NCBI GenBank assembly: GCA_016937915.1
Contig: JAFGVR010000084.1
Location: 1 to 17,773 of the forward strand
Direction of reading: 5' to 3'
DNA from: Campylobacterales bacterium
GTDB taxonomy: Bacteria; Campylobacterota; Campylobacteria; Campylobacterales; Sulfurimonadaceae
DNA: 17,773 bases
The translations under genes and the position numbers were made by a program. The notes beneath the pieces were generated by a model, which was given only the letters and a program-made list of their open reading frames with translations, had not been told where the DNA came from and searched no databases. How positions within the stretch are numbered: the stretch's first letter is position 1; each line of letters begins with the position of its first letter. Below, piece by piece: positions 2,912 through 17,191 of the stretch.

Positions 2912-4497
2912 ATAAGTTACAAGATGCTTATGAAGCAAGGGCAAAAAAAACAAATAAGATAGAGGATATAAAAAAGTTAAAAACACCTATGAGTGTTTAT
3001 GATAGGTTAGATGAGATAGCATCTTCAACACTTGAGGAGTTATTTGATGAGGATAGTTCATTTTTCTTAAAATGTTTTGGTTTGTTTTTAAAAAAAGATG
3101 GAAAGTTTATGCTTCGCATCCGCATCCCTGCTGGTGCTCTAAGTTGTGAACAAGCCCAAAAGATAGGGGAACTTTCAAAACTTTATGGTGATGATTATAT
3201 AGATATAACTACAAGACAGCAGATAGAGCTTAGATATATACAGTTAAAAAATATATCTACAGTTTTAAAAGAGTTAGACAGTGTTGGCATCTCAACATTT
3301 CAAACAGGGGTGGATAACTTTAGAAACATAGTAACAAGCTCTATGGATGGTCTTGGTGATACCTCTATAGTAGAGTGCAAACCTATCATAGATGAACTTC
3401 AGTTACTATTTTTTAAAAAAGAGGAGTGGATAGGGAAACTCCCTAGAAAATTTAATACTGCTATTTTGGGAAATAGTATAAATGATTGTAATATCTATGG
3501 ACACGACTGTTGTTTTATAGTTGCATCTTGTGATGGTGAGATAGGGTTTAATCTATATCTTGGTGGAAAAGTTGGAGTTCAAGCACAAGATTGCGGACTT
3601 TTTTTAACTAAAGAGCAGGTTGTACCTACATTTAAAGCTATAGTTGAACTTTTTAAAAGATACGGTTTTAGAGATAATAGAAATAAAAACCGTCTCCATT
3701 TTTTACTTGAGGCGGTTGGGATGGATGAGTTTGTAAAAGCTATCAAAGAGGAGTCAAACATTAGTTATAAAAATTCAGGTGATATCCTTGCAAAAGATGA
3801 GTTTGTTTTAGATAGTGGTTCTATCTATAAACTTAATGATGAGATAAACGCTTACCACCTAAGCATACCAAGTGGCGTTTTTAGTGGGATAGATCTTATC
3901 AAAGTTGCATCTCTTTGTGCTAAAACAGACTCTTTTATAAGGTTATCTGTTGAACAAAGTCTCTACATCATTAGTGCTTCAAAAAACAAAGAGGAGATTT
4001 TAAAATCTGATATATACAGTAGTTATGCATCTTATCAAAATATATATTTTAACCATCAGATAGCTTGTGCAGGGACTGCTACATGTTCGTTTGGTGTGAT
4101 ACCAAATAAGCCAGATGCTATAGAGATGGCGGAGTTTTTACAAAAAGAGGTACCATTAGAGGATGGCAAAGTGAGGATGTACTGGTCAGCTTGTCCTAAA
4201 GGGTGTGGCATCCATGGTGTGGCAGATATAGGTTTTGAAGGGTGCAAGGCAAAAGATGATGATGGTGATAGCTGTTATGGTGTCCATATATATCTAGGTG
4301 GAAAAGCTACAAAAGAGGCAAAAGAAGCTAGAGTTCTTTATAAAGCTATTCCACTTTATGAAGCAAAAGAGAAAGTAAAGGGTCTTATGATTTATTATAA
4401 AAATTATAAAAAAGAGAATGAGACATTTGAAGAGTTTGACAGCAGGGTTTTTAGTGATTTAAGTGTTGATGAGATAATTGAAAAAATAAAAATTTAA
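2908..4497 (+). CDS. nirA: Ferredoxin-type assimilatory nitrite reductase (siroheme, [4Fe-4S])
   Basis: Six-electron reduction of nitrite to ammonium in the cytoplasm, with electrons probably from ferredoxin. The 529-residue protein shows the duplicated nitrite/sulfite reductase layout: ferredoxin-like half domains (an early one near residues 60-115, ending in the siroheme-contacting segment DITTRQQIELRYI, and a second near 310-365) alternating with the catalytic domains. The siroheme/[4Fe-4S] ligands are four Cys in the usual spacing: C387 and C393 (Cys-x5-Cys in ACAGTATCSFGV), then C429 and C433 (Cys-x3-Cys in SACPKGCG). There are no N-terminal flavin or [2Fe-2S] domains, so it is not an NADH-dependent NirB or CysI-type enzyme. 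Assimilatory sulfite reductase is the near relative; the adjacent nitrate reductase gene favours nitrite as substrate. The start codon lies within the ATGA overlap with cysG. It is the last gene of its operon and is followed 43 bases later by a terminator hairpin. Confidence 0.9.
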   Translation: MNKLQDAYEARAKKTNKIEDIKKLKTPMSVYDRLDEIASSTLEELFDEDSSFFLKCFGLFLKKDGKFMLRIRIPAGALSCEQAQKIGELSKLYGDDYIDITTRQQIELRYIQLKNISTVLKELDSVGISTFQTGVDNFRNIVTSSMDGLGDTSIVECKPIIDELQLLFFKKEEWIGKLPRKFNTAILGNSINDCNIYGHDCCFIVASCDGEIGFNLYLGGKVGVQAQDCGLFLTKEQVVPTFKAIVELFKRYGFRDNRNKNRLHFLLEAVGMDEFVKAIKEESNISYKNSGDILAKDEFVLDSGSIYKLNDEINAYHLSIPSGVFSGIDLIKVASLCAKTDSFIRLSVEQSLYIISASKNKEEILKSDIYSSYASYQNIYFNHQIACAGTATCSFGVIPNKPDAIEMAEFLQKEVPLEDGKVRMYWSACPKGCGIHGVADIGFEGCKAKDDDGDSCYGVHIYLGGKATKEAKEARVLYKAIPLYEAKEKVKGLMIYYKNYKKENETFEEFDSRVFSDLSVDEIIEKIKI

Positions 4498-4540
4498 TCT
4501 CTATATATTACAAAACTACACATAAGTTTTCTTTCATATT

Positions 4541-4582
4541 TAAGCTATGTTGCAACTTGTAACATGGCTTACTATTTTTTTT
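4541..4582 (+). terminator. Intrinsic terminator of the narB-cysG-nirA operon
   Basis: Bases 4541-4553 pair with 4559-4571 in a 13-bp stem. Eleven pairs are Watson-Crick, with G-U wobbles at 4546/4566 and 4552/4560, and the loop is AACTT (4554-4558). Eight T (4575-4582) follow three bases after the stem. The orientation fits termination on the + strand only; there is no matching T-tract for the opposite strand. It lies 43 bases after the nirA stop and separates the nitrate operon from the nuo operon. Confidence 0.85.
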
Positions 4583-4594
4583 CTATCACATAAG

Positions 4595-4621
4595 TTTGTT
4601 TAATACTCTTTTTGATATAGT
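4595..4621 (+). promoter_or_regulatory. nuoA promoter: Candidate sigma-70-type promoter of the nuo operon
   Basis: Between the terminator and nuoA the DNA is T-rich. TATAGT at 4616-4621 is a good -10 hexamer, preceded by T-runs (CTTTTTGA). A weak TTTGTT at 4595-4600 sits at a short spacing. Campylobacterota housekeeping promoters typically have a strong -10, periodic T-rich upstream DNA and no conserved -35, which fits. Transcription would start near 4628, leaving a leader of about 58 bases before nuoA. The call rests on pattern and position only. Confidence 0.45.
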
Positions 4622-4685
4622 GCAACTAACTGTTTTTTCTTCTATGTTTTTTGGAAGGGAAAAAATATTGAAAAGGTAGGATTAT

Positions 4686-5075
4686 ATGGAACATATTGCT
4701 ACAGCAAATCCGTATTTTGGGGTATTTGTACTTTTTGTAATTACATTTGGTGCATTTACAGCAACAACAATTATCGCTCGTTTAGCATCTCGTGCGCTTG
4801 CTGCTAAAGACAGTGAAAAGCTTAAGCTTTCTGTTTATGAGTGTGGACCAGAGGTTACAAAACAGCCAAATAGATTATCACCTCAGTTTTATCTATTTGC
4901 ACTTTTATTTCTACTTTTTGATGTAGAGATAGTGTTTATGTTTCCATGGGCAGTTGATTTCAAACTACTTGGTTGGTTTGGTTTTGCTGAAATGTTAATG
5001 TTTATATTACTTTTAACTATTGGTTTTATTTACGCATGGAAAAAAGGAGCGCTTGAATGGCACAACATAAAATAA
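4686..5075 (+). CDS. nuoA: NADH-quinone oxidoreductase subunit A (membrane)
   Basis: Small membrane subunit of complex I that lines the junction between the quinone site and the membrane arm. The 129-residue protein has three predicted transmembrane helices (about 11-34, 66-88 and 97-116). Its loop after helix 1 carries the invariant YECGPE (Cys53), and the start of helix 2 carries [20 protein letters not shown] with Asp79 and Glu81, both family hallmarks. The ATG at 4686 follows AGGA (4678-4681) at 4 bases. It is the first gene of the nuo operon and overlaps nuoB by 19 bases in a different frame, which suggests coupled translation. Confidence 0.97.
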
Positions 5076-5566
5076 ATTATACGCAAGATGGTGGTTTGCC
5101 AGTTGCACTTACAACTATAGATAAAGTTGCAAACTGGGGGCGTTCAAACTCTCTTTGGGCTATGACTTATGGTCTAGCTTGTTGTGGTATTGAGATGATG
5201 GCAGCAGGTGCTTCAAGATATGACTTTGACCGTTTTGGTACCATATTTCGTGCATCTCCAAGACAATCAGATGTTATGATAGTTGCTGGGACTTTAACTA
5301 AAAAGCACTCGGAATTTATCAAAAGACTTTATGATCAGATGACTGAGCCTAGATGGGTTATCTCGATGGGTTCATGTGCAAATACTGGTGGTATGTTTAA
5401 CACTTACGCAACTGTTCAAGGTGTTGATAGAATCATCCCAGTTGATTTATATCTTCCAGGTTGTGCACCTCGTCCTGAAACACTTCAGTATGGTGTGATG
5501 CTTTTACAAAAAAAGATCCGTGCAAACAAAGCGGGTCGTGCTCAAAAATCTAAAAGGTTGATGTAA
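5057..5566 (+). CDS. nuoB: NADH-quinone oxidoreductase subunit B, carries cluster N2
   Basis: Q-module subunit that holds the terminal [4Fe-4S] cluster N2, the direct electron donor to quinone. The four ligands are visible: the tandem C42-C43 in [11 protein letters not shown]107 in GSCANTGG, and C136 in PGCAPRPE. At 169 residues it is compact and begins almost at the core domain, with a short basic C-terminal tail after residue 155. The start inside nuoA is supported by a strong Shine-Dalgarno AAGGAG at 5044-5049, seven bases before the ATG. The stop overlaps the nuoC start by one base (TAATG). Confidence 0.97.
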
Positions 5567-6372
5567 TGAGAACATATAAACCAAAAGATGATGTACAAAA
5601 AAAAGCTTACTACACAGATAGATTTTATGTAGCTCCTCAAGTTCCTAAAAGTGATGTTGAGAGTGATGAAGTTTTCGCAAAAGATTTAGAGGCTATCAAA
5701 GCTAAGTTTGAAGTGTTAGATGCTTACATACAAGTTGAGCAAATGGTTGTTTGGATAAAACCAGAAGATAACTACGGTGTGATAGAGCTTATGAGAGATG
5801 AGCTTGAATATACTCAACTTAGTGAACTAAGTGCGATTGATTTTATAGCACAAAGAGATGAGTTTGAGATTTTTTATCAGATGCTAAGTATGAACAAAAG
5901 AAAAAGAGTTCGTATTAAGATGAGCATCAAAAACGGTCAAGCTGTAAACTCTGTTGAAAAACTTTTCCGTAGTGCAGATTGGAGTGAGCGTGAGATGTAC
6001 GATATGTTTGGTATCGTAGCTAATGGTCACCCATTTATGAAAAGAATCCTTATGCCTTATGACTGGCAGGGGCATCCACTTCTTAAATCTTACCCACTTC
6101 AAGGTGATGAGTTTGCTGCGTGGTATGAGGTTGATAAGATATTTGGTAAAGAGGCAAGAGATATCGTTGGTCCTGAGCTTAGAGACACTTCTAGAGTTGA
6201 TAGATACGACTCTACTCGTTTTGCTCGTCTTGGTCATGAGGTGCCGTTTGGTGCAGAGGTTAAAGGTGATGAGCCTGTAACTGAGCAATCTTACCAAGAA
6301 GAGGGCGGTGTGTTCTTAGTTAAAAAATTAGATAAAGCATCATCAGTTGTTGTTGATGATCCGCAAAGATAG
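5566..6372 (+). CDS. nuoC: NADH-quinone oxidoreductase subunit C (30 kDa)
   Basis: Peripheral subunit that clamps NuoD and NuoB in the Q-module; it binds no cofactor. The 30-kDa signature is clear at residues 140-150 (SEREMYDMFGI), followed by GHPFMKRILMPYDWQGHPL and YPLQGDE. The protein is 268 residues, longer than minimal NuoC. It has a charged N-terminal stretch (about 1-35) and an acidic C-terminal extension of about 85 residues after the signature, without a motif I recognise. It is a separate gene, not the NuoCD fusion of E. coli. The start is TAATG-coupled to nuoB, with AAGG at 5554-5557. Confidence 0.95.
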   Translation: MRTYKPKDDVQKKAYYTDRFYVAPQVPKSDVESDEVFAKDLEAIKAKFEVLDAYIQVEQMVVWIKPEDNYGVIELMRDELEYTQLSELSAIDFIAQRDEFEIFYQMLSMNKRKRVRIKMSIKNGQAVNSVEKLFRSADWSEREMYDMFGIVANGHPFMKRILMPYDWQGHPLLKSYPLQGDEFAAWYEVDKIFGKEARDIVGPELRDTSRVDRYDSTRFARLGHEVPFGAEVKGDEPVTEQSYQEEGGVFLVKKLDKASSVVVDDPQR

Positions 6373-6382
6373 GTGGTAAAAT

Positions 6383-7624
6383 ATGGCACAAATACAAAAT
6401 AGATTAACTCCGTTTTTTGAAAATATCACATTTGATAGAGAAGATAATGAGTTAGTGTTAAACTTTGGTCCTCAGCACCCATCTGCTCACGGACAGCTTC
6501 GTTTGATGCTTCACTTACAACAAGAGCAAATCGTAAAAGCTCATCCAGACATAGGTTACCTTCACCGTGGCATGGAGAAGATGGCTGAAAACATGATATA
6601 TAACGAGTTTATGCCAACAACAGATCGTATGGACTATATCGCATCATCATCTAACAACTACGGTTTTGCACTTGCAGTTGAGAAACTGATAGGGCTTGAA
6701 GTTCCTCGTCGTGCTAAAGTTATCCGTATGATGCTTTTAGAGATAAACCGTATGATGTCTCACCTTTTCTGGCTTGCAACAACTGCACTTGATATTGGTG
6801 CTATGACTATATTTTTATTTGTATTTCGTGAGCGTGAATATCTTATGGATATTATCGAGGGTTATTGTGGAGCTAGACTTACACATTCAGCTGTTCGCAT
6901 CGGTGGTGTTCCATTAGATATCCAAGATAGTTTCATAGCTCAGTTAAAAGATTTCCTAGAGAAACTTCCTCAAAACATCAAAGATTACGAGGACCTACTT
7001 GATAGTAACCGTATCTGGAGAATGAGAATGGAAGAGGTTGGACATATTCCAACTGAGATGGCACTATCTTGGGGTTGCAGCGGTCCAATGCTAAGAGCAT
7101 CTGGAGTAGCTTGGGATATCCGTAAAGAGGAGCCTTATGAGCTTTATGATGAAGTTGAGTTTAATGTACCTTACTCTGATGTAGGGGATAACTTCGCTCG
7201 TTATAGAATCTATATGGAAGAGATGCGTGAGACTGCAAAGATACTTTGGCAAACTATAGATATGTACGCAGAGTGTGTAAAAAATGGTCAAACTGAACTT
7301 ATGGCTCATGCTCCAAAATATATCTCAGCTCCAAAGCTTGATATCATGACTCAAAACTACTCATTGATGCAACACTTCGTACTTGTTACTCAAGGGATGA
7401 GACCACCAGTTGGTGAAGTTTATGTAGCTACAGAATCACCAAAAGGGGAGCTTGGTTACTTTATAAACTCTCAAGGTGGACCGTATCCATACAGATTAAA
7501 ACTTCGTGCACCATCTTTTTACCATACAGGGATTTTAACTGATATGTTACCTGGTTGTTACATCCCAGATGTTGTTTCAATTATAGGTACTACAAATATT
7601 GTATTTGGTGAGGTTGACAGATAA
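6383..7624 (+). CDS. nuoD: NADH-quinone oxidoreductase subunit D (49 kDa, quinone site)
   Basis: Forms the quinone-binding cavity with NuoB and NuoH. The N-terminal signature [16 protein letters not shown] contains His36, and DRMDYIASS contains Tyr85. Their 49-residue spacing matches the His38/Tyr87 quinone-headgroup pair of the Thermus subunit. [11 protein letters not shown] and the C-terminal [12 protein letters not shown] end are family hallmarks. Length is 413 residues, as expected, and the Ni-binding cysteines of related hydrogenases are absent. AGGTGG at 6371-6376 precedes the ATG by six bases. The stop TAA shares a base with the ATG of a 32-codon ORF in the following gap. Confidence 0.97.
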
Positions 7625-7665: not shown

Positions 7666-7722
7666 TTTAGTGAGGGGAATTTTGCAAAGAATTCACTTCT
7701 TTGTAAAAGGAGACAAATATAA
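7624..7722 (+). CDS. Possible 32-residue micro-ORF filling the nuoD/nuoE-like gap
   Basis: An ATG overlapping the nuoD stop (TAATG at 7622-7626) opens a 32-codon frame. Its own TAA (7720-7722) overlaps the ATG of the next gene in the same TAATG manner. The product begins [18 protein letters not shown], is basic, has two Cys and resembles nothing I know. Its ribosome site would be a weak GAGG (7610-7613) within nuoD. The exact double coupling is what argues for it. Against it, the same bases are dominated by hairpins, and a short open frame of this size can arise by chance. It may be a coupling device rather than a functional peptide. Confidence 0.25.
   Translation: MRNLKNLSLIARCSFSEGNFAKNSLLCKRRQI
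7680..7713 (+). promoter_or_regulatory. Hairpin abutting the ribosome binding site of the nuoE-like gene
   Basis: Bases 7680-7691 pair with 7697-7708 in a 12-bp stem (one G-U wobble at 7684/7704) around loop TTCAC. The 3' arm ends in AAAA, which runs straight into GGAGA (7709-7713), so part of the strong Shine-Dalgarno AAGGAGA (7707-7713) is in the stem. No T-tract follows. A role in mRNA processing, stability or translation control between the Q-module genes and the input-module genes is inferred. Confidence 0.5.
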
Positions 7723-7946
7723 TGAAACGCTATGATTTAAGACATTTAAAAGATGGTTTTGAGCCTATAATGGTAGAGATTTTAGGTGAACATAAAAAAG
7801 GTGAAGTTGCGATATTTTTGTTTGAGATAGGTGATTTCTCACCAGTTCAAAAATCAGCAGATATTGTAAAAGAGCAAGGTTATGAGTTACTAAACTCTTT
7901 AAAGTTTAACGAAGTCGATTGGACTATCGTAGTAAAAAAAGACTAA
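7722..7946 (+). CDS. Small NuoE-position subunit of complex I (HP1264/Cj1575-like)
   Basis: Occupies the nuoE slot but is not NuoE. It has 74 residues against about 160 for canonical NuoE, and no cysteine, so it cannot carry the [2Fe-2S] cluster N1a. The predicted order of secondary structure is beta-alpha-beta-alpha-beta. The start YDLRHLKDGFEPIMVEI and the end DWTIVVKK recall the TusA/SirA fold (LDLRGL..CPEPVM in E. coli TusA), with the active-site Cys missing; this link is my inference. From the literature as I remember it, Helicobacter pylori and Campylobacter jejuni have similar small proteins (HP1264, Cj1575c) in place of NuoE. AAGGAGA (7707-7713) precedes the ATG by eight bases. The stop lies 10 bases before the TTG start of the nuoF-slot gene, so the two are probably co-translated and may form a subcomplex. 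Confidence 0.8.
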   Translation: MKRYDLRHLKDGFEPIMVEILGEHKKGEVAIFLFEIGDFSPVQKSADIVKEQGYELLNSLKFNEVDWTIVVKKD

Positions 7947-7949
7947 GGA
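7945..7949 (+). promoter_or_regulatory. Ribosome binding site deciding the TTG start of the nuoF-slot gene
   Basis: AAGGA overlaps the stop of the preceding gene and lies seven bases before TTG at 7957-7959. The next in-frame Met is about 33 residues later (VMYN) and would cut into the conserved N-terminal part, so the TTG is preferred. A TTG start usually lowers initiation efficiency. Confidence 0.7.
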
Positions 7950-7956
7950 CTATATT

Positions 7957-9996
7957 TTGAGCAAAGTCTATTTCTCAACTTGGAGAGGGGAGTCTATAAA
8001 TAACATAGGCAAACCGCAAGAAGAGTGGGAAGAATCAGCTTATAAACTACCTGTAATGTACAATACAGACACTAATTCAAAAGCTTTTATCGGCTGGGAT
8101 GGTGTATCTTTATTTGATGCAGATATAGATGTAGTTCGCTTAGCTACTGAGTACGCAGCACAATATCAAGTATATTCTGAAGCGTGTGGTAGATGTGCAC
8201 CTGGAAGATGGGGTGGGCGTATATTATACGATATGCTTGACAAGATTGCACGCGGCGAGGGAAGTTTGGCTGATTTGGATCACTTGAAAGAGATATGTTC
8301 AAGTATGCAGCTTACTTCAAAATGTGAGATTGGTAAAACGGTTCCAAACCCAATTTTAGATCTTTTAAAACATTTTGAAGATACTTTTTTAGAGTGCATA
8401 AACGAACAAAAAAAGTCAAAACACTACGATGCAAAAGTTGATTATATAGCAAAAATCACTGCACCTTGTACAGATATGTGTCCAGCACATGTTGACATAC
8501 CTGGATATATAGAGGGTGTTAGGGATTTAAGATTTGATGATTCTTTAATGGCTACTCGTCAAACTATGCCTCTAGCTCATGTTTGTGGTCGTGTATGTCC
8601 GCATCCTTGTGAAGATGCATGTCGCCGTACTAACCTTGATTCACCTATCGCTATTATGGAGCTTAAACGCCTTGGTGCTGATTATGAAACAGATCATGGA
8701 TTTGGATTTTTCCACCCTATGAAGAAAAAACCATCAATTGGTAAAAAAGTAGCTATAGTTGGAGCTGGTCCTGCAGGACTTACTAACGCTTACTATTTAG
8801 CTGCTGAGGGTGTTGAAGTAGATGTATATGAAGAGCTTCCAGTTTTAGGTGGTGAGGTTACTGTTGGTGTTCCTCAGTACCGTATGCCTTGGGAGAAGTA
8901 CATAAAAGATATCGAATGTGTAAAAGATATGGGTGTTAACTTTATCATGAATCATAAAGTTACTGCTGATGATATGCGTCGTTTTGAAGAGGAATACGAT
9001 GCTACCATGATAGCATCTGGTACAAGACTTTCTAAAAAAGTTTATTGTGAAAATGAGCGTGCAGATATAAAAGGTTATTGGGGAGCTATCGATTTTCTTG
9101 ACTGGGTAAACCTGTATGAGAAGTTTGATATAAAAACTCCAAAACATATCCAAGAGCAACAACTACTTACTACTGATTATGTTGACTTAACTGGTAAAAC
9201 AGTTGTTTGTGTAGGTGGTGGTTTTACATCTATGGATGTTGTTCGCTGTTCTGTTCGTGCTGGTGCTAAAAAAGTTATCATGATTTATCGTCGTGATGAG
9301 AAAACAATCATCCGTAATACAACTTATGAGGAGTATCACGAAGCTGTTGAAGAGGGTGTAGAGTTTATTTTCCACTCAGCAGTTGCAGAGATGATAGATG
9401 AAGATAATGTCTTGAAACAACTTGTTATAGATAAGTTTGAGTTAGTTCCAGATCCAAACGGTGGTCGTGATCAACTTGTAAAAATCGAGGGAGCGTCTGA
9501 GACTATAGATGTTGATTATCTTATCCCTGCGGTTTCTCAAGCGGCTGATTTTAGCCATATACCACAAGAGTGGGAGTTAGCTAAAACTTCATGGAATTCA
9601 CTTCAAACAAATGGTAAAGACTATATGACTTCACGCAAAGGAATCTTTGCTGCGGGTGATTGTGAGTATGGTCCTATGACGATAGTAAATGCTGTTGGTC
9701 AAGCAAAAAGAGCGGCTTCTGTTATGCTTAGATATGTACAAACTGGTGAGATAACTTTAACTGATGATGAGATTATGGAAGATCACTTATCTAAGTTAAA
9801 AGTTTATAATAAGAGTGAAAAAGTAACAGGTTGGCTTCCAGGTGTTCCTAGAGAAAAAAGTGACATCCTTGATCTTGATATAAGAAAACAAAAGTTTAAC
9901 AATACTGAGGTTAACTTTGGTTTTACTCAAGAACAAGCTATCCATGAAGCAAATCGTTGTATGAGATGTTACTATATAGCTATGGTAGCTAAGTAG
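7957..9996 (+). CDS. NuoF-position FAD/Fe-S oxidoreductase: NuoF-type Fe-S domain fused to GltD/SfrB-like NAD(P)H module
   Basis: Probable electron-input subunit replacing NuoF, 679 residues with a TTG start. Residues about 60-150 match the C-terminal [4Fe-4S] (N3) domain of NuoF: C77, C80, then Gly83 where the third Cys should be, and C123 in KCEIGKTVPNPI, all at family spacing. The FMN/NADH Rossmann domain of NuoF is absent. Residues about 155-250 form a dihydropyrimidine-dehydrogenase/GltD-type Fe-S domain with Cys171, 175, 210, 214, 218 and 222 (PCTDMCPAHVDIPGYI; CGRVCPHPCEDACRR). Then come the FAD site VAIVGAGPAGL (265-275), the NAD(P) site VCVGGGFTSMD (417-427) followed by YRR (444-446), and the FAD-closing GIFAAGDCEYGPMT. 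The C-terminus has RCMRC (667-671). The layout resembles Geobacter SfrB and NADPH-linked glutamate synthase small chains. Function as NAD(P)H dehydrogenase of complex I, or as a ferredoxin/flavodoxin-linked transhydrogenase, is inferred from position. Confidence 0.85.
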   Translation: MSKVYFSTWRGESINNIGKPQEEWEESAYKLPVMYNTDTNSKAFIGWDGVSLFDADIDVVRLATEYAAQYQVYSEACGRCAPGRWGGRILYDMLDKIARGEGSLADLDHLKEICSSMQLTSKCEIGKTVPNPILDLLKHFEDTFLECINEQKKSKHYDAKVDYIAKITAPCTDMCPAHVDIPGYIEGVRDLRFDDSLMATRQTMPLAHVCGRVCPHPCEDACRRTNLDSPIAIMELKRLGADYETDHGFGFFHPMKKKPSIGKKVAIVGAGPAGLTNAYYLAAEGVEVDVYEELPVLGGEVTVGVPQYRMPWEKYIKDIECVKDMGVNFIMNHKVTADDMRRFEEEYDATMIASGTRLSKKVYCENERADIKGYWGAIDFLDWVNLYEKFDIKTPKHIQEQQLLTTDYVDLTGKTVVCVGGGFTSMDVVRCSVRAGAKKVIMIYRRDEKTIIRNTTYEEYHEAVEEGVEFIFHSAVAEMIDEDNVLKQLVIDKFELVPDPNGGRDQLVKIEGASETIDVDYLIPAVSQAADFSHIPQEWELAKTSWNSLQTNGKDYMTSRKGIFAAGDCEYGPMTIVNAVGQAKRAASVMLRYVQTGEITLTDDEIMEDHLSKLKVYNKSEKVTGWLPGVPREKSDILDLDIRKQKFNNTEVNFGFTQEQAIHEANRCMRCYYIAMVAK

Positions 9997-10012
9997 AAAG
10001 GGGGTATGTGAA

Positions 10013-12202
10013 ATGATTAATTTTAAGATCAACGGTATCTCAGCTCAAGCTAAAAAAGGGGAGACTATCTTACAAGTAGCTCGTAGAATGGGTATGTATA
10101 TCCCTACTATGTGTTACCTATCAAAAGCTAATCCAAATGCATCTTGTAGGATGTGCATCGTTGAAGCAAAAGATGTTAACGGTTTTGTACTTAGCTGTAA
10201 CACTCCTCCAACAGAGGGTGCAGAGTTTTTTACAGACTCACCAGCACTTTTTAAAGAGCGTCAAAACATCATGAAACTCTACAATGTTAACCACCCGCTT
10301 CAGTGTGGTGTGTGTGACAAAAGTGGAGAGTGTGAGCTTCAAAACAAAACTTTAGAGTTTGGTGTAGCTGAGCAGAGTTTTGCTGTTCGTGATCAGGCTC
10401 GTAAAAAGAAAAAGTGGGGTGTTCATACTTATGACCCATCTTTATGTATCCTTTGTGAAAAGTGTACAACTGTTTGTCATGAGATAGTTGGTAGTGAAGC
10501 TTTATATATAGAGGTTGGTGGATATAAATCTCATATAGATATAAACCTTAAAAACTGTATCCAGTGTGGTGAGTGTGTATCTGTTTGCCCTGTTGGTGCT
10601 ATGGCTTCAACTGAGTTTAAATACACTTCAAACGCATGGGAGATGAAAAAAGTACCATCTAGTTGTGCTCATTGTTCAAGTGCATGTTCACTAAACTATG
10701 AGGTTAAAGATGGTGAGATAAAAAGAGTTACAAATGAAGCTGAATTCTCTTCACTTTGTGGAGCAGGTAGATTTGGTTTTGATTTTGCGAACAATGTATC
10801 TGCAAAAGACTCTGAAGCGTTTGATAAAGCGGTAGCTGCATTTAGGGATGCTAAAAATGTTGTGTTTAATTCATACATAACAAACGAAGAGGCGTACCTT
10901 TTAAATCAGCTAAAACAAAAACTTGGATTTAACCTTGTAAATGATGAAGCAAGAGCGTTTAAAACTTTTATGAAGGCATTTGCATCTACAGCTGGTGAAT
11001 CACTTTACAGTGCTACACTTGATGATGTTAGAGCAAGTGATTATGCTATAAGTGTTGGATGCTCAATTGCGAGTGATAACCCTATGGTTAAGTTTGCTTT
11101 ATCTCAAGCAGTTGGGTATAAAAAAGCGTTTGTTGCTTCTATCCACCCTGTAGAGGAATCTGCTATCGCAAATGTTATCTCTTTATTTGTTAAAAATGAG
11201 GTTGGTAGCGAAGAGGCAGCTCTAGCTATGATAGCTGATGCGTTTGTTGAAGACAAATCAACTCAAAAAGAGTTTTTTGATTCGCTTGATTTTGGATATT
11301 TGAGTGGTGAGAGCAATATCTCTGAAGAAGAGATAGCTATTCTAAAACAAAAATATGCAAGGAAAAAATCTCCAGTGCTTATACTTGGAGCTGATGTTAT
11401 AAATCATAAATCTGCATCTAACATAGGTAGAATCGCTGGATTTATCCAAAAAAATACTCAGTTTAAAGTTTTAGTAGTGCCACCAGTTACAAACACTTTT
11501 GGTGTTAGCCTAATTTGTGATTTGGATGAAAAAACTGCTGGTTATACAGTTGGATACAATGTAAAAGGTGACTTTACTCTAAGTGCTAAAGGTGATGGTG
11601 ATTTAGATATGCCTGCACTAAACAGCCAAGAGGGAACTTTTGTAAACATCGATAAAGATTTGGTTGTTTTAAATGCAGCAGCAAGTTATAAAGGTTATGA
11701 GTTAAACGACATTGCATCAGCACTTGGTGTTAAAACTCAAAATGTTATAGATTATACATCTAAACTTGGATTTAAAGATGTAGAGTTTGATGATTTAGAA
11801 AACTACTATGACAATGTTGGAAATGCTTATCGCGGTTACAAGATAGAATCAAAATCAACTTCAGCGGATGCAAAAATTCAAGAGGTTACAGAGCTTGGTG
11901 AGTACAACGGAAGTGTAGTTTATGATAGAGATCCTATCAGCCAATTTAGCCCTTTTACTAAAGATTGTAAACAGATTAAAGGTAATCTTGATCTAATCGG
12001 TTCAGAGCAATTTTCAATAGCTGCGAAGATAAAATCTGGTGATAATGTGAAGTTTAGTGTAAATGGTGTTGAATTTGTAAGACATTTTAGGGTTGATAGA
12101 CATATGAAAGGTACAGTTGCGTATAATCCTGTATTTGATATAGATTCTAAAACTTCAGAATATAGATACAACCAAGTGAAGATAGAGGTAATAAATGGAT
12201 AA
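10013..12202 (+). CDS. nuoG: NADH-quinone oxidoreductase subunit G, first copy
   Basis: Large Fe-S subunit of the peripheral arm. The 729 residues carry, in order: a [2Fe-2S] site (C34, C45, C48, C62); the His-Cys3 N5 site (H94, C98, C101, C107); a full ferredoxin cluster (C145, C148, C151, C155); a second (C182, C185, C188, C192); and an N7-type site (C218, C221, C225, C249). A molybdopterin-oxidoreductase-like domain without obvious active-site Cys follows to about 580, then a short C-terminal domain. Canonical NuoG has one CxxCxxC...C cluster where this has two complete ones, as in [FeFe] hydrogenases and NAD(P)-linked formate dehydrogenases. An AAAGGGGG sequence (9997-10004) precedes the ATG. 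The stop overlaps the second nuoG copy by eight bases. Position between the NuoF-like gene and nuoH supports complex I over a free-standing enzyme. Confidence 0.92.
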   Translation: MINFKINGISAQAKKGETILQVARRMGMYIPTMCYLSKANPNASCRMCIVEAKDVNGFVLSCNTPPTEGAEFFTDSPALFKERQNIMKLYNVNHPLQCGVCDKSGECELQNKTLEFGVAEQSFAVRDQARKKKKWGVHTYDPSLCILCEKCTTVCHEIVGSEALYIEVGGYKSHIDINLKNCIQCGECVSVCPVGAMASTEFKYTSNAWEMKKVPSSCAHCSSACSLNYEVKDGEIKRVTNEAEFSSLCGAGRFGFDFANNVSAKDSEAFDKAVAAFRDAKNVVFNSYITNEEAYLLNQLKQKLGFNLVNDEARAFKTFMKAFASTAGESLYSATLDDVRASDYAISVGCSIASDNPMVKFALSQAVGYKKAFVASIHPVEESAIANVISLFVKNEVGSEEAALAMIADAFVEDKSTQKEFFDSLDFGYLSGESNISEEEIAILKQKYARKKSPVLILGADVINHKSASNIGRIAGFIQKNTQFKVLVVPPVTNTFGVSLICDLDEKTAGYTVGYNVKGDFTLSAKGDGDLDMPALNSQEGTFVNIDKDLVVLNAAASYKGYELNDIASALGVKTQNVIDYTSKLGFKDVEFDDLENYYDNVGNAYRGYKIESKSTSADAKIQEVTELGEYNGSVVYDRDPISQFSPFTKDCKQIKGNLDLIGSEQFSIAAKIKSGDNVKFSVNGVEFVRHFRVDRHMKGTVAYNPVFDIDSKTSEYRYNQVKIEVING

Positions 12203-14690
12203 TAAGATTACTATAAATATTGATGGAAAAGAGATTCAAACGCAAGAGGGTGAGTATATTTTAAATGCTGCTCGTGCGAATGATATTTTCATCCCTGCAA
12301 TATGTTATTTGACTAGATGTAGCCCGACCTTAGCTTGTCGTATATGTCTAGTTGAGGCAGATGGCAAACAGGTTTATGCTTGTAATGCTAAATGTAAAGA
12401 TGGTATGAACATAACTACTACTACTGAAAACATCGCAAAAGAGCGTCGTGCTATTATGGAGGTTTATGATGTAAACCATCCATTACAGTGTGGTGTTTGT
12501 GATCAATCAGGGGAGTGTGAACTTCAAAACTATACATTAGAGATTGGTGTTGATTCTCAAAACTATGCTATCAAAGATGTACATAGACCAGCAAAAGACT
12601 GGGGACACTTACATTATGATGCTGGACTTTGTATAGTTTGTGAGAGATGTGTAACTGCATGTAAAGATATGATAGGTGATAACTCACTTAAAACTATCAA
12701 GCGTGGTTCAGATGCAATCGATGCTCAGTACAAAGAGGAGATGCCAAAAGATGCTTACGCTATGTGGAACAAGCTTAACAAATCTATCATCGGTTTATCA
12801 AACGGAACTGATGAGGATTTAGATTGTACATCTTGTGGTGAGTGTGCAGCTGTTTGTCCTGTTGGAGCGTTGGTTGATACTAAGTTTATGTACACTACAA
12901 ACGCTTGGGAGTTAAACAGAATCCCTGCAACTTGTGGACACTGTAGTGCTGGTTGTCAAATAAACTATGAGGTAAAACATACAAGTATCGAAAACCCTGA
13001 AGATAAGATTTACCGTGTAACAAATGAGTGGAACTATGTGTCACTTTGTGGAGCTGGTAGATACGGATTTGATTACCAAAATGCAGATGCTAAAAAAGAT
13101 GAAGTTGCATTTAACAAGGCAGTTGAAGCTTTCAAAAAAGCAGATGCTATCAAGTTTACTTCAACTATCACAAACGAAGAGGCACTTATCTTAGAAAAAC
13201 TAAGAGAGAAATATGGGTATAAACTTGTAAATGAAGATGCAAGAAGTTTCCAAACTTTCTTAAAAGATTACTCAGCTGTAAGTGGAACTACCCTTTATGG
13301 AAGTGATCTAAAAGAGGTAGCTGCGAGTGATTTTATAGTAAGTATTGGTTCTGCACTAAAGAGTGACAATCCAAATGCAAGATATGCTTTAAATAACTCA
13401 ATGACTGTAAATAAGGGTGCTGGTATATATTTTCACCCAGTAAAAGATCCAATCATAGAGGGACTTAACAAAAACCTAATCACAGTAAACCATAAACCTC
13501 TTCTTGAGGAGGCTGCTTTATACCTTTTACTTGATCTATTTGGTGATAAAGAGAAGATGCCATCAAGTGTAGCTCAGTATCTTGAATCATTTCACTCTAA
13601 AAAAATTGTAACAGTAACTGAGACTATAAAAGAGAGTGTTACTGAGATAGTTAAAGAGATGAAACTAAATGAAGAGACTGGCGTAGAAGAAGAAGTTGAA
13701 GTAGAAAAAACTAAAATGGTTCCTAAAAAAGTATCTAAAGAGGTTGAAGTTGAAGATAACCGCCTTTTAGAGATTTTGGGTGCTAGTGAAAGTTTTATGG
13801 ATGATTTAGATAAACAACTAAAGAAAAAAGAGAGTTTTGCTCTAATCGTTGGAGCAGATCTATACAACCATCCAAAAGCTAAAAACCTTGCTCGTTTATG
13901 TGCATTAGTTGAAAAGTATGCTGGATTTAAACTTGTTATGATCCCAACTCTTACAAATACTTTGGGTGTATCTATGATAAATGAGTTATCAGATGAGAGT
14001 GGAAAATATACTATAGGTTATAACACTAAAGGTGATTTTACTCTTTCAGCTTTAGGTGATGGTGATCTTGATATGCCTGCACTTAACCAACAAGAGGGTA
14101 CCCTTACATCTATAAACAAAAATGTAAACCCTACAAATGCTGCGATAGGTTATAACGGATATACTTTAGCAGATATAGCAAACGCTTTAGGGGTTGAGTC
14201 TAAAAACACTATAGATTTTACAGCACAGCTTCCAGAGTCTAAAGGTTTCTCAAATATCGCTTTTGATGATTTAGAAGATTATTATACAAATGCTGGAGAA
14301 GAGGTTAGAGGTTATAAACTTCAAAATATCTCTGTAGAAGTAAATAGTGATGAGAGTGTAGAGAAGTTTGAAGAGAGTATGGCTATGGACTCAACTATTA
14401 TCTATATGGCAAATCCAGTTAGACAATTTAGTGAGTTTACAAATAAAGCTAGCGGACTTGATGAAGTTAGTGGTGTATATATGAGTGAAGAGTATCTAAA
14501 AGGCTCTGATTTTAACGAGGGTGATAGCGTAAGAGTTAAAAATGAAAATGGTGAGATAGTTGCAAAAATCGTAAGTGACAATAAAATCGCTGGTGATATT
14601 GTAGTTATTCCAACTTTTGATTCTAAATTAAATTCAGAGGCTCTGTTTAGTGGTTACCGCTTTGCTACAGCTTCGATAGAAAGGGTGTAA
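12195..14690 (+). CDS. nuoG2: NADH-quinone oxidoreductase subunit G, second copy (tandem paralogue)
   Basis: An 831-residue paralogue of the preceding gene, collinear along its whole length. Cluster ligands: C37, C48, C51, C63; H95, C99, C102, C108; C146, C149, C152, C156; C211, C214, C217, C221; C247, C250, C254, C285. The MoCo-like domain shares long blocks with copy 1, including GDFTLSA.GDGDLDMPALN.QEGT (about 613-636). Two inserts set it apart. One is about 28 residues between the two ferredoxin clusters (about 165-205). The other is a highly charged, repetitive stretch at about 470-522 (ETIKESVTEIVKEMK, then EEEVEVEKTK and KEVEVEDN) that looks like an extended or coiled-coil linker. Its start lies inside the end of copy 1, so translation is coupled. 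It may form a second Fe-S branch or replace copy 1 under other conditions; the sequence does not say which. Confidence 0.9.
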   Translation: MDNKITINIDGKEIQTQEGEYILNAARANDIFIPAICYLTRCSPTLACRICLVEADGKQVYACNAKCKDGMNITTTTENIAKERRAIMEVYDVNHPLQCGVCDQSGECELQNYTLEIGVDSQNYAIKDVHRPAKDWGHLHYDAGLCIVCERCVTACKDMIGDNSLKTIKRGSDAIDAQYKEEMPKDAYAMWNKLNKSIIGLSNGTDEDLDCTSCGECAAVCPVGALVDTKFMYTTNAWELNRIPATCGHCSAGCQINYEVKHTSIENPEDKIYRVTNEWNYVSLCGAGRYGFDYQNADAKKDEVAFNKAVEAFKKADAIKFTSTITNEEALILEKLREKYGYKLVNEDARSFQTFLKDYSAVSGTTLYGSDLKEVAASDFIVSIGSALKSDNPNARYALNNSMTVNKGAGIYFHPVKDPIIEGLNKNLITVNHKPLLEEAALYLLLDLFGDKEKMPSSVAQYLESFHSKKIVTVTETIKESVTEIVKEMKLNEETGVEEEVEVEKTKMVPKKVSKEVEVEDNRLLEILGASESFMDDLDKQLKKKESFALIVGADLYNHPKAKNLARLCALVEKYAGFKLVMIPTLTNTLGVSMINELSDESGKYTIGYNTKGDFTLSALGDGDLDMPALNQQEGTLTSINKNVNPTNAAIGYNGYTLADIANALGVESKNTIDFTAQLPESKGFSNIAFDDLEDYYTNAGEEVRGYKLQNISVEVNSDESVEKFEESMAMDSTIIYMANPVRQFSEFTNKASGLDEVSGVYMSEEYLKGSDFNEGDSVRVKNENGEIVAKIVSDNKIAGDIVVIPTFDSKLNSEALFSGYRFATASIERV

Positions 14691-14693
14691 TAT

Positions 14694-15671
14694 ATGGAAG
14701 CATATTTAATAGAAACGGTTATTAAAGTCGTTGTAGTATTATTGATATTTTCAGCACTTGCTGGTATCGGTACATACTTTGAAAGAAAGGTTCTTGCATT
14801 TATGCAACGCCGTTTAGGTCCAATGTATGTTGGTCCTTATGGATTGTTGCAAGTTGCGGCAGATGGTGTAAAACTTTTTACAAAAGAGGATATTATCCCA
14901 ACTGGTGTAGTTGCTAAGATATTTAAGATAGCTCCTGTTATTACAGCTGCTACTGCATTTATGGCTGCAGCTGCTATACCGTTTTTGCCTCAGTTTGAGA
15001 TATTTGGATACACTGTTCATCCAATTATTGCTGATGTAAATATCGGTATCCTTTATGTTCTTGGTGTTATGGCTATAGGACTTTATGGACCATTACTTGG
15101 TGGTATGGCATCTGCTAATAAGTACTCACTTATCTCAGCTGCTAGAAGTGCTGCGGTATTTATCTCTTATGAGGTTGTAACGGGTCTTTCTATACTTGCT
15201 CCTATCATGATGGTTGGTTCATTATCTCTTGTAGATTTTAACAACTATCAAGTGGAAAATGGTTGGATAGTATGGTCACAACCTGTTGCATTTATTTTAT
15301 TTTGGATAGCTGCTTTTGCTGAAACTGGTCGTACACCATTTCACCTTATAGCAAATGACCATGAGATAATCGATGGTTTTGGTACTGAGTACTCTGGTAT
15401 GAGATGGGGTCTTTTCTTTATCGGTGAGTATGCAAATATGTTCTTTATCTCATTTGTTATCCCATTACTTTTCTTAGGTGGTTTTGGTGATGGTAGTGTG
15501 ATGGGTGCATTGGCACTTCTTGGTAAAGTTGCATTTTTCTTTTTCTTCTTCTTATGGACAAGAGCTGCATGGCCAGATGTAAGACCAGATCAATTGATGT
15601 GGTTATGTTGGAAAGTACTTATGCCAATAGCAGTGATTAATGTAGTTATCACTGGTATCGTGATGATGTAA
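14694..15671 (+). CDS. nuoH: NADH-quinone oxidoreductase subunit H (membrane)
   Basis: Membrane subunit that anchors the peripheral arm and forms the entrance and floor of the quinone cavity. The 325 residues form about eight hydrophobic segments. Hallmarks are ERKVLAFMQRRLGPMYVGPYG (30-50), Glu160 in the SYEV segment, and the third cytoplasmic loop AETGRTPFHLIANDHEI with TEYSGM (209-236). Compared with the widespread ETNR.PFDL.EGESELV form, Asp is His217 and one loop Glu is Ala220, while Asp222 and Glu224 are kept. A run of six Phe occurs near residue 283. AAGGG (14681-14685) precedes the ATG by eight bases, three bases after the nuoG2 stop. Confidence 0.96.
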   Translation: MEAYLIETVIKVVVVLLIFSALAGIGTYFERKVLAFMQRRLGPMYVGPYGLLQVAADGVKLFTKEDIIPTGVVAKIFKIAPVITAATAFMAAAAIPFLPQFEIFGYTVHPIIADVNIGILYVLGVMAIGLYGPLLGGMASANKYSLISAARSAAVFISYEVVTGLSILAPIMMVGSLSLVDFNNYQVENGWIVWSQPVAFILFWIAAFAETGRTPFHLIANDHEIIDGFGTEYSGMRWGLFFIGEYANMFFISFVIPLLFLGGFGDGSVMGALALLGKVAFFFFFFLWTRAAWPDVRPDQLMWLCWKVLMPIAVINVVITGIVMM

Positions 15672-15685
15672 GGGGGAGATGGATA

Positions 15686-16300
15686 ATGTTAGAAGATTTC
15701 AAAAACAGAAATGTATCTGAAGATACTTACTATAAAGTAGATATTGAAGCCTATCCAGTAACTGGATGGGATAAGTTTAAAAGAGTTGTGCAAAGAACTT
15801 TCAAAGGTGAGCTTTTTGTGGGTCTTTGGGTAGTTATGCGTGAGATGATCGATTTTAAGATCCATACTGTTCAGTATCCTGAAGAGAAGATGCCAATAGG
15901 GCCAAGATACCGTGCAATTCATGAGATGAAAAGACTTTTAGAGTCAAACACTGAGAGATGTATCGGTTGTGGTCTTTGTGAGAAGATCTGTATCTCAAAC
16001 TGTATAAAGATAGATACTAAGATAGATCAGAACTCTCGTAAAGAGGTGAGTGAATATAGCATAAATCTAGGTCGTTGTATCTTCTGTGGTTATTGTGCAG
16101 AGGTTTGTCCAGAACTTGCTATCACTCATGGTGGAAGATATGAAAATGCATCTGATCAAAGGGAACACTTTGTTATGTATGAAGATATGTTAACACCAAT
16201 AGATGTTATGAAAGCCAACGCTCAAAAAGAGTTTGAAGGTTTTGGTGCTATCACACCACATGAAGATGAGCGTGTTAAGAAAACACCTCTAGCATATTAA
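15686..16300 (+). CDS. nuoI: NADH-quinone oxidoreductase subunit I, carries N6a and N6b
   Basis: Q-module ferredoxin-like subunit passing electrons from NuoG to cluster N2 in NuoB. Two [4Fe-4S] motifs are present: C92, C95, C98, C102 (RCIGCGLCEKIC) and C131, C134, C137, C141 (RCIFCGYCAEVCPE). The first lacks the usual Pro after its fourth Cys and has an extra Cys106 (ISNCI). The amphipathic N-terminal region contains a hydrophobic stretch (ELFVGLWVVMREMIDF, 42-57) that probably lies on the membrane. GGGGGAG at 15672-15678 precedes the ATG. Length (204) is slightly above bacterial NuoI, mainly through the C-terminal tail. Confidence 0.96.
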   Translation: MLEDFKNRNVSEDTYYKVDIEAYPVTGWDKFKRVVQRTFKGELFVGLWVVMREMIDFKIHTVQYPEEKMPIGPRYRAIHEMKRLLESNTERCIGCGLCEKICISNCIKIDTKIDQNSRKEVSEYSINLGRCIFCGYCAEVCPELAITHGGRYENASDQREHFVMYEDMLTPIDVMKANAQKEFEGFGAITPHEDERVKKTPLAY

Positions 16301-16310
16301 GGAGTTTGGA

Positions 16311-16886
16311 ATGTTTGAAGCTATCGCTTTTTATCTGTTTGCTTTTTTAACTATCTCGATGTTCTACATCACAGTTACTACAAATCAAGCGTTATATGCC
16401 CTAACTGCACTAGCAGCGGGGATGATATTTATATCAGTATTTTTCTTTATTCTAGGTGCTGACTTTTTGGGTGCGATTCAGATAATCGTTTATACTGGTG
16501 CGGTTATGGCACTTTATGCATTTGGTATGATGTTTTTTGATACAACTCGTGATGTAAAAGAGAAACAAGGCAATAAGTTTATAATAGTTGGACTTAGTGC
16601 ATTATCTGCTGTTTTAGTAGTGCTTATATTTGTAGCTCCAATTGTTAGTGATAACATCACTGCACTTTACCCTATGACTGAGGGTGCTGGAAATACACAA
16701 GAGGTTGGTATGGTTTTATTTACAAAATACCTTATCCCATTTGAAGTAGCTGCGGTTATGCTTTTAGTAGCTATGATAGCTGGTATAGTTTTAGCTGGTA
16801 AGAAAATGGACTTATCTTTAACACTTATGAATGATGCACAAATCAGACATATAGATGAAGAAAAAAATAAAAAGGTGATTTCATGA
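16311..16886 (+). CDS. nuoJ: NADH-quinone oxidoreductase subunit J (membrane)
   Basis: Membrane-arm subunit linking the quinone site to the antiporter-like subunits. There are five hydrophobic segments in 191 residues. The third (about 53-76) carries the family core GAIQIIVYTGAVMALYAFGM with Tyr61, the helix known to form a pi-bulge during the catalytic cycle. The C-terminal 25 residues are charged and cytoplasmic. AAGGAG (16299-16304) overlaps the nuoI stop and is spaced six bases from the ATG. The stop overlaps the nuoK start (ATGA). Confidence 0.96.
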   Translation: MFEAIAFYLFAFLTISMFYITVTTNQALYALTALAAGMIFISVFFFILGADFLGAIQIIVYTGAVMALYAFGMMFFDTTRDVKEKQGNKFIIVGLSALSAVLVVLIFVAPIVSDNITALYPMTEGAGNTQEVGMVLFTKYLIPFEVAAVMLLVAMIAGIVLAGKKMDLSLTLMNDAQIRHIDEEKNKKVIS

Positions 16887-17191
16887 TGGAAATAGGACTT
16901 AGTCATTATCTTGTTCTTTCAACTATCCTTTTTGCTATAGGTTTAGTTGGTGTGATGAAGAGAAAGAACCTTTTATTGTTGTTTTTCTCTACTGAGATTT
17001 TATTAAACTCTGTAAATATAGCGTTTGCTGCTATTTCACACTATTATGGTGATTTAACTGGTCAAATGTTTGCATTTTTTGTTATCGCGATTGCAGCATC
17101 TGAAGTTGCAGTTGGACTAGGTTTACTAATCGTTTGGCATAAGCGTCATAACACTGTTGATCTAGATACTATGTCAACAATGAGAGGATAG
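16883..17191 (+). CDS. nuoK: NADH-quinone oxidoreductase subunit K (membrane, MrpC-like)
   Basis: Three-helix proton-channel subunit of the membrane arm, 102 residues. Two membrane-embedded glutamates are kept: Glu38 (FFSTEILLNSVN) and Glu74 (AASEVAVGLGL). Their 36-residue spacing equals that of Glu36 and Glu72 in E. coli. The frame opens with ATGATG, so either codon could start it; the first is in the ATGA overlap with nuoJ. It is preceded by AAGGTGA near 16872. Confidence 0.96.
   Translation: MMEIGLSHYLVLSTILFAIGLVGVMKRKNLLLLFFSTEILLNSVNIAFAAISHYYGDLTGQMFAFFVIAIAASEVAVGLGLLIVWHKRHNTVDLDTMSTMRG

Follow-up and report, generated by a model that had tools for sequence, protein, structure and literature searches.

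For the Campylobacterota, a variant of complex I termed epsilon-Nuo has been described in which NuoX and NuoY replace the subunits NuoE and NuoF (Weerakoon and Olson 2008, as cited in PMC6682613 and PMC4178425; see also PMC4585668), and ferredoxin or flavodoxin as electron donor of the NuoXY-type complex is likewise already in print. Further papers report FMN binding by the H. pylori NuoX orthologue HP1264 (PMC6269979; structure in PDB 2LXR), label HP1265 as NuoF (PMC3561388) and, with reference to Weerakoon and Olson, ascribe to C. jejuni NuoY (Cj1574c) the passing of flavodoxin electrons to complex I (PMC4178425). A second group of relatives is given by the soluble Stn- and NfnABC-type enzymes (StnC; structures 8oh5, 9bov and 9n5u), which possess a GltD unit with FAD and an NADPH site fused into a NuoG-like chain and which keep a NuoE/NuoF-like FMN bifurcating module. 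For StnC, the structure paper (PMC10482914) reported linear electron transfer with bifurcation having been lost, as well as a lysine (Lys170) that, in one of the structural states, is a ligand of the proximal cluster. Within this work, the nuo operon (4686 to about 17191) on contig JAFGVR010000084.1 was compared with these systems, the window being this one whole contig of 17,773 bases from a Campylobacterota assembly that is 63% complete.

Between nuoD and nuoH, the operon encodes a cysteine-free protein of 74 residues (NuoX), a 679-residue protein in which the N3 cluster domain of NuoF is fused to a GltD-type flavoprotein, and two NuoG proteins (NuoG1 and NuoG2). All four open reading frames (ORFs) are open and follow each other in one uninterrupted run, with gaps of 10 bases between nuoX and the fusion gene and 16 bases between the latter and nuoG1, and an overlap of 8 bases between nuoG1 and nuoG2. 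This layout, including the complete FAD/NAD(P)H module and the second NuoG, had been described in the original prediction and was borne out by the Pfam domains and the cofactor ligands, both of which are read directly from the sequence. With canonical 14-subunit complex I the operon shares NuoA to NuoD, NuoH, NuoI and NuoG2, but it encodes neither NuoE nor the NuoF FMN/NADH domain and possesses a second NuoG. With epsilon-Nuo it shares the operon position, an orthologous NuoX and the absence of NuoE and NuoF, and the single NuoG of epsilon-Nuo is orthologous to NuoG2; unlike epsilon-Nuo, it has the full-length NuoG1 and the 679-residue flavoprotein instead of the short NuoY. On balance, we favour reading the encoded enzyme as a complex I whose port is of the NADPH type and would be wired through NuoG1.

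The nearest solved relatives of the 679-residue fusion are Caldicellulosiruptor NfnABC (9bov_A, E 2.1e-74), Sporomusa StnC (8oh5_C, 6.1e-69) and Thermococcus NfnA (9n5u_A, 3.4e-68), and the fold predicted by AlphaFold for its GltD part (residues 169-611) agrees with these Stn/Nfn relatives. The Fer4_20 domain holds Cys171, 175, 210, 214, 218 and 222 together with Lys237, and the C-terminal segment EVNFGFTQEQAIHEANRCMRC aligns to the N-terminal CxxC segment of the T. maritima and P. furiosus Nfn proteins, which completes the set of eight cysteines for the two GltD clusters, with two of these relocated to the C-terminus like in StnC. In all 33 survey sequences the eight cysteines, Lys237, Arg309 and the Tyr-Arg-Arg motif at 444-446 are invariant, the motif being the one that contacts the 2'-phosphate of NADPH in this family; invariant too are Cys418, Cys431 and Cys569, which lie within the two Rossmann domains. 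The likeness to Stn/NfnABC consequently comprises a GltD unit with FAD, an NADPH site, a C-terminal RCxxC, the lysine at the proximal cluster and a NuoG-like chain; in contrast to these soluble enzymes, in which GltD is fused into NuoG, the two are separate ORFs here and GltD is fused to the N3 domain, while the FMN bifurcating module is missing and the whole is embedded in a full complex I operon. The same two-domain layout of N3 and GltD was found in Collinsella aerofaciens (WP_195568673.1, 29% identity over 89% of the query), whose protein, which we take to be SfrB-like, differs in possessing a normal CGKCTPC motif with the distal cysteine and in having a hydrogenase rather than complex I as partner. 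The resemblance to soluble NADPH modules is hence real, and the operon provides a further case of a GltD/NADPH cassette joined with NuoG, here inside a complex I operon. In the N3 domain, the motif reads CGRC(A/T)PG in 33/33 sequences, whereby Cys77, Cys80 and Cys123 are kept and the position of the third ligand is taken by Gly83, for which an Acetoanaerobium StnB-like protein has the cysteine; judged by these ligands, the N3 cluster of the fusion must be altered or absent. Some relatives carry 'Formate dehydrogenase' names, which are source labels only. One relative (P0007) is named 'Glutamate synthase [NADPH] small chain' by its source, as would be expected if the 679-residue protein were a glutamate synthase small subunit misplaced in the operon. 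This identity was rejected as highly improbable, given a separate GltD-sized homologue (456-499 residues, 29-35% identity) elsewhere in 29 of the 33 fusion genomes and the constancy of both the N3 domain and the nuo linkage.

The 74-residue protein belongs to PF16514 (NADH-UOR_E, E 1.9e-38) and matches PDB 2lxr (HP1264) with E 6.9e-22. It possesses no cysteine, so the ligands for the [2Fe-2S] cluster N1a of NuoE are not present in it. The NuoF FMN/NADH domain (PF01512, Complex1_51K) had no match in the ten window ORFs scanned nor in the 63% complete assembly, and was likewise not found in seven of seven further genomes sampled from the genus, whose completeness is 99% or higher, or in 28 of the 32 other sampled fusion-bearing genomes; StnA- or StnB-like proteins with FMN were not among the scanned window ORFs either. 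The absence of NuoE and NuoF from the operon, which had been predicted and is in line with the replacement already published for the phylum, is supported by these findings, as is the loss of the NuoF FMN/NADH fold; a loss of FMN itself is not certain, since HP1264 was reported to be an FMN binder.

Lys237 is diagnostic for the flavin chemistry of the module; it aligns with StnC Lys170, the respective column in Nfn (4ylf_B, 5jca_L) being a glutamate that serves as ligand of the proximal [4Fe-4S] cluster by the FAD. Bifurcation had been raised as a possibility in the original prediction. It would here mean that electrons from NADPH go to both menaquinone and ferredoxin, or come from both in the opposite direction (confurcation), and the site could be the GltD FAD, as for Nfn, or an FMN bound to NuoX. 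Such a mode would suit the need of the autotrophs of this group for reduced ferredoxin, the reported FMN binding of HP1264 and the alignment of Arg309 with Arg201 of P. furiosus NfnI-L, which was proposed to tune the bifurcating FAD. We regard it as quite unlikely: in 33/33 sequences Lys237 represents the StnC state, StnC keeps the arginine as well and yet was reported to have lost bifurcation, and a Hyd/Stn-type FMN module, i.e., the NuoF flavin domain, is lacking from the window, its assembly and the 28 genomes mentioned. As Lys237 corresponds to the StnC state and Arg309 is also kept in StnC, the sequence favours linear NADPH transfer over bifurcation at the FAD of the fusion.

To place the window into its phylum, 150 Campylobacterota genomes were surveyed, of which 136 matched PF00346 (NuoD-type, a family that also matches hydrogenases), 119 possessed NuoX (PF16514; 0/14 control genomes), 18 PF01512, 33 the full-length fusion and 38 PF16114 (ATP-citrate lyase, ACL). 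Loci were compared for the 32 fusion genomes apart from the window and for 48 of the 86 NuoX genomes without fusion. The order nuoD-nuoX-fusion-nuoG1-nuoG2 recurs in 31 of the 32 fusion loci, the remaining contig (L092) ending inside nuoG1, and this recurrence excludes chance or misassembly as the source of the arrangement. Full-length NuoG1 accompanies the fusion in 32/32 untruncated survey loci, a co-inheritance read directly from the loci, while NuoG2 is present in each survey locus that is not truncated and NuoX in 33/33 fusion genomes. A second set comprises 80 named loci, the best 80 of at least 592, which overlaps with the survey set so that the two do not provide independent counts; 41 of these show the complete order D-X-Y-G1-G2-H-I, 29 agree with it up to the point where the stretch ends, and 10 deviate. 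Among the latter, five have ORFs lost to unknown bases (with tblastn, the genes were located at their usual positions), split ORFs account for two and three deviations are real. Record titles of the named loci include Sulfurimonas, Sulfuricurvum, Sulfurovum, Nitratifractor, Nitratiruptor, Hydrogenimonas and one Helicobacter isolate, and among the matches listed the closest named relatives by the 679-residue protein are Sulfurimonas metagenome-assembled genomes.

In the loci without fusion, an ORF of 229-343 residues, the short NuoY, is located between nuoX and nuoG2 in 45 of 48 cases. A hidden Markov model (HMM) built from fusion-locus NuoG1 alone matches 45/45 of these (E 1e-68 to 3e-18), always with the C-terminal part of NuoG1, while the NuoG2 HMM matches 25/45 and more weakly, although it was built with NuoG2 rows from the same short loci, a bias that would be in favour of NuoG2. 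Profile-profile comparison (hhalign) gave E 6.2e-53 for NuoY against NuoG1 and 1.5e-22 against NuoG2, and in the reverse search with a NuoY HMM against the 1,197 ORFs of the 32 fusion loci NuoG1 was the best match in 32/32. A derivation of NuoY from NuoF or the fusion was rejected: the fusion HMM, built from 33 long NuoY sequences, matches 0/45 and hhalign assigned a probability of 0.1%. NuoG1 harbours all its cluster ligands within its first 249 residues, i.e., sets which we take to be N1b, N5, two ferredoxin-type [4Fe-4S] and N7-type, and the blocks to which NuoY aligns (Table 1) lie past all of these; a CxxCxxC motif was found in 0/45 short NuoY and no cysteine column exceeds 23/45. On this homology, which is itself directly seen, NuoY is the cluster-free C-terminal part of NuoG1 alone, with nothing of the fusion, and not a replacement of NuoF, and its role would be docking or structural rather than electron carrying. 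The protein described as NuoF replacement, with HP1265 labelled accordingly, is thereby reinterpreted as what is left of a second NuoG after loss of its cluster-bearing part, and as NuoY is without visible redox centre, electrons from flavodoxin must enter elsewhere, that is at NuoX or NuoG. The NuoX of locus L115 is identical to HP1264 across 74 residues, on which ground its NuoY stands for HP1265; likewise, family f2/genus g17 was called Helicobacter from the NuoX identical to HP1264. That Cj1574c belongs to this NuoY class would follow from where its gene is located and from family f3, which was called Campylobacter-like on account of one thioredoxin reductase with C. jejuni 3r9u as best solved match.

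No NuoY was found between nuoX and nuoG2 in the remaining three loci (L118, L119 and L121, genus code g17), where nuoX directly abuts nuoG2, which in L118 is itself split into two ORFs. As the short loci were selected by NuoX, its general presence among them proves nothing, but its persistence in these three loci makes NuoG2 the more likely partner of NuoX. A partial NuoX (residues 33-74) was also observed in one genome (G087:C1:1142416-1142538) that matches neither PF00346 nor PF10588, and this fragment is apparently left over from a complex I since lost. In survey loci, both NuoG copies possess two ferredoxin-type [4Fe-4S] ligand sets, one more site per NuoG than in canonical complex I, as the Thermus NuoG has one. 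An N7-type cysteine set is found in NuoG2 of 29/32 fusion loci and 19/48 others, and judged by the ligand sets the NuoG pair of the fusion-type complex could carry about ten clusters. In its C-terminal half, NuoG2 possesses a Glu/Lys/Val-rich, coiled-coil-like stretch (VTETIKESVTEIVKEM..., residues 474-521, positions 13614-13757).

NuoG1 and NuoG2 form separate clades with 100% SH-aLRT support (20 and 46 rows), hence the duplication is older than the sampled families. In the NuoG2 tree, which was computed by a quick method from 20 fusion and 26 non-fusion genomes of 32 and 48 and contains one very long row (L096), the non-fusion genomes are scattered and the starred branches force at least four changes of form. 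In a tree of 19 NuoG1, 26 NuoY and 6 NuoG2 rows, NuoY and NuoG1 stand together apart from NuoG2 (100%), with NuoY among the NuoG1 rows in the best tree at weaker support; here the starred branches force one change, which is compatible with a single origin of the short form, so that a single loss of the fusion form also agrees with the tree of the short NuoY. The simplest reading of these trees would nevertheless be that the fusion form is older and was reduced several times to the Campylobacter/Helicobacter-type form, each reduction having dropped the flavoprotein and the cluster-bearing half of NuoG1 while usually keeping the rest of NuoG1. The survey across the phylum proposed earlier thereby gives the short form the appearance of a reduced derivative. 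In the open-access literature searched, neither the N3-GltD subunit nor the tandem arrangement of NuoG nor the descent of NuoY from NuoG was found to be described, a statement that concerns this literature and does not claim absence from print.

For the complex with an NADPH-type port, StnC serves as a template, in which the path leads from NADPH via FAD and the two GltD clusters to NuoG-type clusters. It may be assumed that two electrons are exchanged between NADP(H) and the GltD-bound FAD of the 679-residue subunit, from where single electrons would pass the two GltD [4Fe-4S] clusters and the modified N3 to the Fe-S chain of NuoG1. In complex I the N3 domain docks on NuoG, and as the GltD unit is fused to an N3 domain, NuoG1 is the likely landing site. 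From NuoG1, electrons would reach menaquinone by way of NuoG2 and NuoI/NuoB in a transfer that drives proton pumping, whereby NuoG2 likely represents the link to NuoI and NuoB, and NuoX may provide a shared ferredoxin/flavodoxin or FMN site beside NuoG2. In an autotrophic sulfur or hydrogen oxidiser the complex would probably run mostly in reverse, with menaquinol and the proton-motive force yielding NADPH. ACL was found in 30 of the 33 fusion genomes as compared to 2 of the 86 other NuoX genomes, a distribution that points to reverse operation supplying NADPH in autotrophs. The module provides a concrete candidate route by which Campylobacterota autotrophs may obtain reductant from sulfur compounds for the reductive tricarboxylic acid (TCA) cycle.

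A number of findings weigh against this reading. On the tree, the ACL link comes down to four independent contrasts, of which on average 1.9 point in the same direction and 0 in the opposite one (46 rows), so the link is largely due to shared ancestry with too few contrasts for significance; moreover, three fusion genomes are without ACL (two of family code f6, one of f2), and six ACL-bearing f5 genomes are without NuoX, hence other routes exist. The third N3 cysteine, missing throughout, makes electron transfer through N3 uncertain, and the AlphaFold pLDDT falls below 50 at residues 169-179, 211-233 and 660-679 among others, which is the GltD cluster region. The nucleotide loop (9214-9237, residues 420-427) reads GGGFTSMD in nearly all 33 rows, with Phe423 and Ser425 in 33/33, where the Stn/Nfn counterpart is GGGNTAMD, a change that could shift the nucleotide preference. 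It is this loop, along with the lack of a NuoF flavin domain in 28/32 sampled relatives, that would speak for a module using NADH, by which an ordinary NADH:menaquinone oxidoreductase would have been restored with a new flavin domain; we consider this unlikely in view of the invariant Tyr-Arg-Arg motif, which contacts the NADPH 2'-phosphate in this family, and of the closest solved relatives of the Stn and Nfn types, which take NADP(H) at this domain.

The three real deviations among the named loci point in the same adverse direction. In L182 the fusion and nuoG1 are followed directly by nuoH, without nuoG2 (3425-6680), being either a true single-NuoG variant, and then an exception to the assigned role of NuoG2, or an assembly collapse of two nuoG copies; L215 is without nuoG1 in the 1.4 kb after the fusion, and L209 has unrelated genes after nuoG1. 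The latter would fit the idea that long NuoY and NuoG1 share the operon but stay outside complex I as a soluble enzyme of their own, similar to SfrAB. So would the Collinsella fusion, whose gene neighbours an [FeFe] hydrogenase, none of the annotated genes in the 11.7 kb covered being a nuo gene, and the evolutionary dispensability of the fusion and of the Fe-S half of NuoG1. Such an enzyme appears improbable, as every untruncated survey locus shows the same position between nuoX and nuoG2, the cluster-free part of NuoG1 persists as NuoY in 45/48 loci without fusion, and C. jejuni NuoY was reported to act in the transfer from flavodoxin to complex I. An extension of the NADPH-port reading, rather unlikely in our estimation, would be a three-way proton-pumping hub with an NADPH port (NuoY-GltD on NuoG1), a ferredoxin/flavodoxin port (NuoX on NuoG2) and the three-cysteine N3 as gate, coupling menaquinol, NADP(H) and ferredoxin, possibly by confurcation; such a hub would be ancestral in this part of the phylum, with the Campylobacter and Helicobacter complexes as one-port remnants.

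Table 1. Features of the nuo operon in the window (aa, amino acid residues)
Feature	Positions	Strand	Evidence
nuoA	4686-5075	+	Pfam/NCBIfam matches
nuoB	5057-5566	+	Pfam/NCBIfam matches
nuoC	5566-6372	+	Pfam/NCBIfam matches
nuoD	6383-7624	+	Pfam/NCBIfam matches
nuoX, 74 aa, Cys-free, PF16514/HP1264 family	7722-7946	+	Pfam, PDB match
NuoF-N3/GltD fusion (long NuoY), 679 aa, TTG start	7957-9996	+	Pfam, solved-structure matches
NuoF-type N3 cluster domain, aa 73-145 of fusion	8173-8391	+	Pfam NADH_4Fe-4S
Fer4_20 domain, aa 168-247 of fusion	8458-8697	+	Pfam
FAD and NAD(P)H double Rossmann module, aa 263-583 of fusion	8743-9705	+	Pfam Pyr_redox_2
C-terminal EVNFGFTQEQAIHEANRCMRC segment, aa 651-671 of fusion, Cys668 and Cys671	9907-9969	+	Alignments to 4ylf_B, 5jca_L
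nuoG1, 729 aa	10013-12202	+	NuoG-like by Pfam/NCBIfam
NuoG1 C-terminal part, aa 317-729	10961-12199	+	Blocks 317-489 and 614-726 are what short NuoY retains
nuoG2, 831 aa, orthologue of the single NuoG in short-form genomes	12195-14690	+	NF006305 PRK08493, 1181 bits
nuoH	14694-15671	+	Pfam
nuoI, probable nuoJ, nuoK	within nuoH-nuoK block 14694-17191	+	nuoI by Pfam; nuoJ and nuoK by position alone

In a plasmid collection, 269 records possessed a match to the fusion, two of which cover at least 80% of the query; one of these two, from Acetoanaerobium, turned out to consist of two adjacent Stn-type ORFs and was rejected as a fusion. Upstream of the nuo operon (48-4497), a molybdopterin oxidoreductase of the nitrate reductase/FdhF type, apparently truncated by the contig start, is encoded along with a CysG-type siroheme synthase and a ferredoxin-nitrite reductase-like protein, which probably constitute an assimilatory nitrate reduction cluster.

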